Notes under the pieces: model-generated
Seen by the model: the letters and a program-made list of their open reading frames with translations, nothing else
What the model was told of the DNA's origin: nothing
Databases searched by the model: none
Shown here: piece after piece, positions 19,899 to 21,242 of the stretch
Layout: each line of letters starts with the position of its first letter
How positions within the stretch are numbered: the first letter of the stretch is position 1
Source of the DNA: a virus
Strand: one strand, 5' to 3'
IMG/VR virus record: IMGVR_UViG_3300036945_000020
Coordinates: 1-21,242 of that record
DNA: 21,242 bases
Position numbers and translations under genes: made by a program

Positions 19899-20327
19899 CT
19901 AAACCCGTCTCTTCGGCGCATACGCGCCGCGTTCACTCAAGTACACAATGGCCCGGTAAAGAATATCGGTATTCTCTCTTGCGTGGCCAAGAACTAAATT
20001 ACACATTTGACAAAGTATGCCGCGTATGTCCCCAGTCTCATGGTTATGGTCTACGACACCTGATCTCCGGCCCTTATACTCTAATGTCTCAGGTATTTCT
20101 ACCTTACAAATACCGCAAGCAAAATTATGGTCGGCAATTAGGTTACGATATTCCTCGACGCTAATACCGTACCGGCGTTGGAGGTTACGACCGCGGTTAT
20201 ACTCTGGGTCTGCGTCTCTGAAGCGGCGTTGCTGTTCGCGCACGCACGGCCTACAGGCGCGCCTGTGGGCGTAGAAGTCGTCTATAGTCTTCTCTTCGCC
20301 ACATTTTATACAAGTCTTTGTATCCAC
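19899..20327 (-). CDS. Endonuclease VII-type HNH nuclease
   Basis: 142 residues from GTG 20327, with AGGGAG seven bases upstream. An N-terminal zinc ribbon has C6, C9, C25 and C28. The nuclease core has C71-x2-C74 and C106-x2-C109 around VVDHNHETGDIRGILC, with D93, H94, N95 and H96: the T4 gp49 (endonuclease VII) family pattern. Such enzymes resolve branched DNA; relatives also occur as free-standing homing nucleases, and HNH proteins beside large terminases assist packaging in some phages. Here it is beside the terminase but separated by a promoter/terminator island, so it could be a mobile insertion or a packaging partner. The fold is clear; the biological role is not. Confidence 0.88.
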   Translation of the reverse strand: MDTKTCIKCGEEKTIDDFYAHRRACRPCVREQQRRFRDADPEYNRGRNLQRRYGISVEEYRNLIADHNFACGICKVEIPETLEYKGRRSGVVDHNHETGDIRGILCQMCNLVLGHARENTDILYRAIVYLSERGAYAPKRRV

Positions 20328-20366
20328 AAGTGCGCTCCCTTTGGACGCCTATAGCTTAAAGTTTGT

Positions 20367-20428
20367 AAAAAAGCAAAAAAAGCGGGGTGGCGGCGTTTCG
20401 CTATTACCGGCCTAGCCGCGCACACCCC
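20367..20428 (-). terminator. Rho-independent terminator
   Basis: On the minus strand GGGGTG (20423-20428) pairs with CACCCC (20384-20389) and GCGGC (20415-20419) pairs with GCCGC (20390-20394), leaving a three-base bulge and a 20-base loop. GC and seven U follow (20375-20381), then GC and six more U (20367-20372). A small alternative hairpin (CGGC-TAG-GCCG, 20408-20418) would compete with the inner arm. Structure and U-tracts are those of a strong intrinsic terminator oriented toward the HNH gene. Confidence 0.8.
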
Positions 20429-20440
20429 TTAGCACCCAAT

Positions 20441-20477
20441 GCCCGGCAGGAGAGGGAGAGAGAAAAACCTGCCGAGC
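20441..20477 (-). other. 10-bp hairpin at the predicted +1 with a pyrimidine-only loop
   Basis: The minus-strand arms GCTCGGCAGG (20468-20477) and CCTGCCGGGC (20441-20450) pair over ten positions with one T-G wobble. The 17-base loop (20451-20467) is all T and C on this strand and contains CTCCCTCT, complementary to purine-rich ribosome sites. There is no U-run after the stem, so it is not a terminator. It starts exactly at the predicted first transcribed base. Confidence 0.8.
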
Positions 20478-20483
20478 AAGACA

Positions 20484-20511
20484 AATATATCACATCTTTA
20501 TTCTATGTCAA
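20484..20511 (-). promoter_or_regulatory. Strong sigma70-like promoter with extended -10
   Basis: A perfect -35 TTGACA (20506-20511) overlaps the terminase stop, and a TATATT -10 (20484-20489), preceded by TGA, follows a 16-base spacer. The predicted start is G20477, six bases after the -10. It reads into the hairpin, the terminator and then the HNH gene. It is the best promoter match in the window. Confidence 0.7.
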
Positions 20512-21242
20512 ACAATACCCCGTATATTCCTACGCAGCGCACCCGACTTGTTGGCCATAGAATAGCCGTGCATGATAGTTGATATATCGGTGGCGAGGCA
20601 CAAGCATAGAGCATCCGCCTTATCCGGCGATGGAAGTCCACGCTTCTTCATGCTCTCCTTGCTCTCGATCTGCATCTTGCCTGACGAGGTAAAGGTATAA
20701 CGCGGCGATGCCAACTCGGCGAACAACTGCTCGTCCTTCGGTATCTTTACATCGCGGTTCGCCAACCACCCTTTGCACTTGAACCACAACTCGGCGCGTA
20801 GGTTGGCGTAAGTCCCTTTCATCGCGGGGCTTTCCGCCACGTTGATCCCACGCGCTGGTAGGCCCAGTTCGCGCAGACGGTCAAGGACACCAGCCCCCAA
20901 CCCGATGCTATCGACCAGTATCTCAACTGGCTGCTCGGATGGCGTTAGCGCCTCATACTCGGCAACGACTGCGCCGGTTAGCTGCATCAAGTCTAGACCT
21001 TTCCAAGTCTGTATCTCTTCAACAACCGGACCGCGCCGCTTGGCGAGTGCGCTGGCATCGGAACCCATACGCGCAACGTCTAGGCCCCACACGCTCTTGG
21101 TGTTCTTGGCAATCTTGATCTCACGGTTCATGGCCGCGTCAATCAACTCGACAGGAATGACGGTATCTTCTTCACGCGGCGGGAAGTTACCAAGAACACG
21201 GACGTGATAGGCTGGGCTGTCATCACCGTAACGTAACTGCAT
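20508..21242 (-). CDS. Terminase large subunit, C-terminal nuclease part (cut by window edge)
   Basis: 244 residues are visible; the ATPase half would lie beyond the right edge, and the apparent ATG at 21242 is a coincidence of the edge. The RNase H-like nuclease fold is shown by VWGLDVARMGSD (D55), ILVDSIGLGAGVLDRL (D111) and SPDKADALCL (D207, D210), the usual three-acid site, and by the upstream YHVRVLGNFPPREEDTVIP linker typical of TerL proteins. TerL packages DNA into the procapsid through the portal and cuts concatemers. The stop codon is embedded in the -35 element of the next promoter. No small terminase is in the window. Confidence 0.9.
   Translation of the reverse strand: MQLRYGDDSPAYHVRVLGNFPPREEDTVIPVELIDAAMNREIKIAKNTKSVWGLDVARMGSDASALAKRRGPVVEEIQTWKGLDLMQLTGAVVAEYEALTPSEQPVEILVDSIGLGAGVLDRLRELGLPARGINVAESPAMKGTYANLRAELWFKCKGWLANRDVKIPKDEQLFAELASPRYTFTSSGKMQIESKESMKKRGLPSPDKADALCLCLATDISTIMHGYSMANKSGALRRNIRGIV

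Follow-up and report, generated by a model that had tools for sequence, protein, structure and literature searches.

Introduction

The timing of gene expression in phages is commonly attributed to transcription. A short unit with its own promoter, placed between the terminase gene and the late structural genes of an uncultured phage, raises the question of whether the resulting RNA would control late transcription, assist packaging, or act on messages. The window analyzed here is the whole of IMG/VR virus record IMGVR_UViG_3300036945_000020 (21,242 bases), which holds chiefly the late side of a phage genome, with the minus-strand gene order terminase large subunit (TerL), endonuclease VII, portal, scaffold, major capsid, and tail. 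TerL and endonuclease VII are separated by a gap of 180 bases, in which the unit lies on the minus strand (Table 1). In the reading favored here, to which we assign a probability of roughly 0.5 from the sequences compared, it encodes an independent phage small RNA (sRNA) whose loop would pair with Shine–Dalgarno (SD) sequences and so repress the translation of early genes.

Table 1. Coordinates of the RNA unit and its flanking features in the window
Feature	Position	Strand	Basis or detail
TerL, C-terminal part	20508–21242	−	phrog_2, E 9.3e-13; cut by the window end
TerL stop codon TGA	20510–20508	−	Overlapped by the −35 of the RNA promoter
RNA promoter	20484–20511	−	−35 TTGACA 20511–20506; 16-nt spacer; extended −10 TATATT 20489–20484
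Small RNA, about 102 nt	20375–20477	−	Predicted +1 G20477; 3′ end in U-tract
P1 hairpin, 11 pairs	20440–20478	−	20477–20468 with 20450–20441, plus one U–A pair
P1 loop, 17 nt, all pyrimidine	20467–20451	−	Sequence
Loop core CUCUCCCUCU, proposed seed	20451–20460	−	Complementary to AGAGGGAGAG SD sequences
Three-way junction P2/P3/P4	20384–20428	−	Same structure given by RNAalifold
P2	20428–20423/20389–20384, then 20421–20419/20392–20390 past bulge U20422	−	
P3	20417–20415/20411–20409	−	
P4	20401–20399/20395–20393	−	
P3-to-P4 joining strand GGUAAUA-GCG	20399–20408	−	UAAUAGCG invariant in 44/44 distinct sequences
U-tracts (7 U + 6 U) of putative intrinsic terminator	20381–20375, 20372–20367	−	Sequence
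Second promoter-like site	20348–20376	−	−35 TTGCTT 20376–20371 in U-tract; 17-nt spacer; −10 TATAGG 20353–20348
Recombination endonuclease VII (HNH-type), gene after the RNA	19899–20327	−	PHROG, E 2.9e-31

Promoter and Extent of the RNA

A preliminary description of this DNA had placed a TTGACA box, an extended −10, a hairpin starting at +1, and a structure resembling a terminator in the gap, and all are found there on the minus strand. The promoter scores 11/12 against the consensus, has TG upstream of the −10 hexamer, and is the sole 11/12 promoter-like site with an extended −10 in the window. Across 75 distinct relatives, the −35 is TTGACA in 73 and TTGACT in two, and the −10 is TATATT in 62 (TATAAA, TATAAT, GATAAA, or TAGAAA in the others). 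A U-tract of at least five residues is present in the relatives listed. The RNA is closer to 102 nt than to the 105–110 nt first claimed. A non-coding stretch enclosed by its own promoter and a terminator-like structure is what the sequence of a phage trans-acting sRNA would be expected to contain, and promoter, structure, and conservation together give good support to the earlier proposal of a phage small RNA that is a unit of its own.

Conservation and Range of the RNA

When 2.9 million viral contigs were searched with TerL, 80 loci with 94–100% TerL identity were retained; they were picked by TerL and not by the RNA. In 80/80 of these contigs, a TTGAC(A/T) box, the loop motif (searched as CTCTCCCTC), and the core strand (searched as (R)(R)TAATAGCG) lie directly after the TerL stop, and the loop CUCUCCCUC is kept in every one; the island is therefore present where the preliminary description expected it in close relatives. 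The covariance model R1 matches the window at 20482–20376 with 112 bits and finds a single RNA copy per contig in 11 large contigs of the clade. It gave nothing convincing in the next TerL clade (57–67% identity), and no RNA over the whole records of seven isolated or environmental phage genomes (including phiM5, Manatee Spring phages, C72C1, Venkman, and HTVC106P); a partial match in C72C1 (10.9 bits) was taken as noise. The search found no TerL loci of about 67% to 94% identity.

A sequence pattern in 84,980 species genomes produced 34 matches, which is about the number estimated for chance, and the best R1 score among them was 22.9 bits, compared with at least 91 for real members. A pattern for the 3′ half of the RNA in viral contigs recovered clade members and five chance matches only, and distant blastn of the terminase–RNA region in phage records gave no match. 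No Rfam family matches the RNA, whether the gathering threshold is applied or E values as high as 10 are allowed, and at the same limits the Rfam covariance model of the C4 antisense RNA family does not match it either. In the open-access literature searched, neither this RNA nor any phage RNA that fits a class of early ribosome-binding sites (RBSs) was found described. Judged from these searches, and as far as they reach, the RNA marks one phage clade. It represents a structured family that Rfam does not contain, and the phage group carrying it occurs in dozens of metagenomes.

An RNA that adjoins TerL in invariable linkage might, like phi29 pRNA, be a packaging RNA working with terminase. 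This is highly improbable: the packaging RNA families in Rfam do not match it, TerL relatives at 57–67% identity manage without it, and the fixed loop would have no known partner in a TerL-type motor. Location is the only evidence for the packaging role suggested in the preliminary description.

A different element was observed in the sister clade, which lacks the RNA. Just after the TerL stop, some of its contigs (L325, L330, L287, L290, L296, L298, L329, L343, and L344) carry an optional element whose two ends pair (AACACGCATGGGGATTG ... AGTCYCCAGCCGTGTTGG) and which is absent in near relatives and has no Rfam match in the loci searched. It is possibly a mobile structured RNA element.

Structure and Covariation of the RNA

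The RNA consists of a 5′ hairpin (P1) and a three-way junction (P2/P3/P4), the latter replacing the bulged GC stem of the preliminary description. This P1-plus-junction fold was recovered by RNAalifold on 44 distinct sequences. A folding energy beyond that of shuffled sequences is found for P1 and not for the RNA as a whole. Against dinucleotide shuffles, P1 folding alone gives z = −4.9 in L001, the closest relative, whose RNA stretch is identical to that of the window, and a mean of −5.8 over 44 distinct relatives, whereas the whole 116 nt of the window RNA gives a z of only −1.15, which is unremarkable because the sequence is GC-rich. It is therefore conservation, and not folding energy alone, that settles that the RNA exceeds chance.

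Over the 44 sequences, 97.7% of cells in the whole structure and 99.8% of those in P1 hold standard pairs. The compensatory stem changes expected in relatives are present: double-sided changes occur at 11 of 26 pairs, compared with 5.1 ± 1.5 in shuffles, none of 500 of which reaches 11, and with at most five double-sided pairs in slid-partner controls. Eight of the 11 pairs of P1 change in this way, and in L079, L080, and L076 the P1 stems are wholly different in sequence. Outside P1, double-sided changes are found at two pairs of P2 and one of P3. The three pairs of P4 hardly vary, and P4 is thus backed by conservation rather than covariation; in most relatives it carries an extra variable hairpin, and in the window, L026, and L028 it is reduced to GCG-AAA-CGC. 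In L116:33-181, the P4 hairpin is apparently duplicated in tandem (GACGATGCTGCTCCTTCGT repeated).

The P1 loop is unpaired in all relatives, with a mean unpaired probability of 0.998. A fixed, exposed, single-stranded UC-rich loop on a variable stem is the feature that distinguishes sRNAs with anti-SD loops, and it is present here. The same data bear on whether the unit is a mere pair of terminator and promoter that keeps TerL and the late operon apart, its short transcript being a by-product. The unit does sit between two transcription units, and a promoter-like site lies downstream (see below), but conservation of a 9-base loop, of an 11-pair hairpin with eight compensated pairs, and of a three-way junction with the invariant UAAUAGCG strand would not be expected of a by-product; this explanation is very improbable.

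Complementarity of the Loop to Ribosome-Binding Sites

Perfect 9-base complements of the loop are almost absent elsewhere in the phage genomes, and for this reason RBSs were compared instead. Open reading frames of 12 clade genomes or large fragments were clustered, and start codons were set by a mechanical rule blind to the loop; one family (G001_57), whose start was not placeable, is excluded from the final count. The functions of early genes were assigned by eye from sequences and not by database search. With early and late classes drawn from gene function rather than timing, and fixed once one genome had been inspected, RBSs with at least six loop-complementary bases precede 42/77 early, 29/57 other non-structural (including TerL, recombinase, and endonuclease VII), and 2/136 late structural genes. 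The combined counts (71/134 non-structural vs. 2/136 structural) represent the target complementarity expected of an anti-SD RNA.

The bias recurs in individual families: primase-helicase (11/11), SNF2-like helicase and DNA polymerase A (10/11 each), TerL (10/12), serine recombinase (9/11), and endonuclease VII (9–10/12). A few early or other non-structural families (G001_266, G001_213, TerS, and G001_145) have hardly any loop match. Early and non-structural RBSs often contain GAGGGA, AGGGAG, or GGGAGA, and structural genes have RBSs of the AAGGA-, GGACT-, and AAGGC- types; matches of targets to the loop are mostly 6–9 bp. In the window, one clear loop match is found, at the RBS of endonuclease VII directly downstream, which has a GTG start and the SD AAAGGGAG (AGGGAG:CUCCCU with the loop). 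In a larger set of loci, the RBS of DNA polymerase matches the loop in 50/61. As an observation on the same gene, DNA polymerase A of L459 (3001–5760) contains an in-frame, intein-like insert of about 285 codons, which starts with CFEEDTLVLTERGW and ends with IVHNC, and inserts of similar size occur in L457, L458, L460, and L465; in another reading frame, the L459 insert holds an open HNH-endonuclease-like frame, a homing-type nuclease overlapping the putative intein.

In a single phylogenetic contrast, the TerL RBS matches the loop in 63/70 members of the clade and 0/75 of the RNA-less sister clade, and the whole-genome match rates are 66/435 and 5/354 genes, respectively. The sister clade is without this DNA polymerase, and replication genes are therefore not comparable one to one. 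Sister-clade TerL genes seem to have no recognizable SD before the probable start codon, which qualifies the 0/75 count.

The sRNA might instead act mainly on host messages, or sequester ribosomes or an RNA-binding protein of the host. The bias among phage RBSs would then be a by-product, which could arise because early genes simply use SDs of the GGGAG type. Phage sRNAs with host targets are known, as exemplified by PreS (PMC12197685). Generic pyrimidine loops also favor the purine-rich early RBSs to a degree, and an energy difference as large as that observed arises with 8 of 100 shuffled loops (mean loop:RBS duplex energy, −9.4 for early and −5.2 for late genes). However, the pairing of RBSs with the 16S anti-SD separates the classes far less well (means of −6.0 and −5.4), which means that late genes match the anti-SD nearly as well as early genes do and yet avoid the loop complement. 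The real loop 10-mer ranks second among 210 permutations of the same composition at separating the classes, and third among 1,024 C/U 10-mers; those ahead of it in either ranking are near-identical shifts of it. Given this rank on the one hand and the shuffles that equal it by energy on the other, the specificity of the loop is real yet moderate, and action chiefly on the host is rather unlikely.

A Second Promoter-Like Site before the Late Operon

The preliminary description raised the alternative of a switch on the late operon and compared the unit with HK022 put. The RNA would then be a leader, as with put or at lambda PR′–tR′ (6S): the promoter transcript would stop at the terminator unless a phage factor, or the RNA itself, permitted read-through into the endonuclease VII, portal, and capsid genes. 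The order of elements is that of PR′–tR′, with a strong promoter, a short transcript, and a terminator immediately before the late structural operon, and the terminator is more elaborate and, at UAAUAGCG, more conserved than termination needs. Against this, a second promoter-like site before endonuclease VII persists in nearly all relatives, including those with a rebuilt sequence. Its −35 is weak. Its −10 reads TATANN in 74 of 75 distinct relatives (the remaining contig ends there), at a spacing of 17–18 nt from TTGCTT-like boxes; in the rebuilt stretch of the L077/L079 type, the site is TTTACA-18-TATA(C/G)T. If active, it would start the endonuclease VII–portal–capsid operon independently of the RNA. 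A late operon that apparently has its own start does not require antitermination, which makes obligatory antitermination unlikely.

The RNA structure also speaks against a leader. The P1 stem changes freely and the loop is fixed, unlike an element recognized by its stem such as put, and the distance from P1 to the junction differs among relatives by more than 10 nt. A free stem with a fixed loop fits base pairing better than binding of the stem by RNA polymerase. Both the put-like reading and that of a late-operon switch are thus disfavored by the separate downstream site and the behavior of P1. Regulation as a leader is unlikely overall; the conserved downstream site, if active, would argue against the read-through step that it presupposes.

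At the start region of the second promoter, several sub-lineages (e.g., L065, L077, and L079) contain TTATCCACA, a perfect DnaA-box sequence; other sub-lineages have unrelated sequence there.

Proposed Function of the RNA

Conserved structure, a fixed exposed loop, and a complementarity bias are computed properties of this RNA family, as is the second promoter-like site of its neighborhood. From these, we infer transcription, termination, pairing in cells, repression, and timing as follows for an sRNA directed at early messages. Host RNA polymerase would start the RNA at the strong promoter just after TerL, and transcription would end at the three-way-junction terminator. The 5′ hairpin would display the pyrimidine loop CUCUCCCUCU, which is predicted to pair with SDs of the AGAGGGAGAG type. 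Such putative target SDs lie before early genes of replication and regulation (SNF2-like helicase, DNA polymerase A, primase-helicase, and a regulator), as well as before TerL, serine recombinase, and endonuclease VII, and almost never before structural genes. With increasing amounts of the RNA, ribosomes would be kept from loading on early messages, while the late operon, apparently with its own promoter past the RNA terminator, would stay free for translation. The predicted outcome is a shift of the infection from DNA copying to particle building.

A broader proposal is more tentative, and we hold it as possible though short of probable: the single-loop RNA may be a general early-to-late translation switch that defines a regulon in a widespread uncultured phage group. 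Under the regulon proposal, loop-matching SDs may have been written into most early genes and kept out of structural genes. If true, early and late genes would be told apart at translation by a 100-nt RNA through their SD type, and the list of its targets would be readable from the genome.

Comparison with Known Systems

The closest bacterial parallels are sRNAs with anti-SD regions. The UC-rich anti-SD regions of NmsRA and NmsRB in Neisseria repress several messages at translation initiation (PMC5362039), and SmelA075 and SmelA099 in Rhizobiales have fixed anti-SD CCUCCUCCC loops on more variable stems (PMC3927594). Like these, the RNA described here has a UC-rich single-stranded region in a hairpin loop that is complementary to the SDs of several messages. 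It differs in that it is encoded by a phage, has one such loop rather than several, carries the motif CUCUCCCUC instead of UCC repeats or CCUCCUCCC, and ends in a three-way-junction terminator, and in that its proposed targets are the early genes of the phage itself.

C4 of phages P1 and P7 is an RNA of about 77 nt that is processed by RNase P from a longer transcript and that has three stem-loops and a single main target, ant (PMC5320573, PMC12197685). Both C4 and the present RNA are phage RNAs with a loop or loops pairing around the RBSs of phage messages, which is a prediction in the present case. Unlike C4, the present RNA has its own promoter and terminator, one loop, many proposed targets, and no Rfam match.

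At lambda PR′–tR′, a strong promoter yields a short, terminated 6S RNA just before the late operon, and the present unit has the same arrangement. The 6S RNA is an Hfq-dependent phage sRNA (PMC12197685). In contrast to lambda, the terminator here is followed by a promoter-like site that belongs to the late operon itself. HK022 put is a pair of stem-loops of about 70 nt that binds the zinc-binding domain of the RNA polymerase β′ subunit and suppresses termination (PMC9378689). In both cases, two RNA structures closely follow a phage promoter, but the second structure here is a three-way junction ending in U-tracts, and the sequence of the P1 stem is unconserved, so the stem features of put are lacking.

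In the virulent Pseudomonas phage PAK_P3, the intergenic sRNA1 and sRNA2 are proposed to act by pairing and translational silencing (PMC4933390); the present RNA resembles them, by description, as an intergenic phage sRNA with a proposed action by pairing. Precedents thus exist for each element separately, namely the UC-rich anti-SD region, the fixed loop on a variable stem, and phage antisense action at the RBS.
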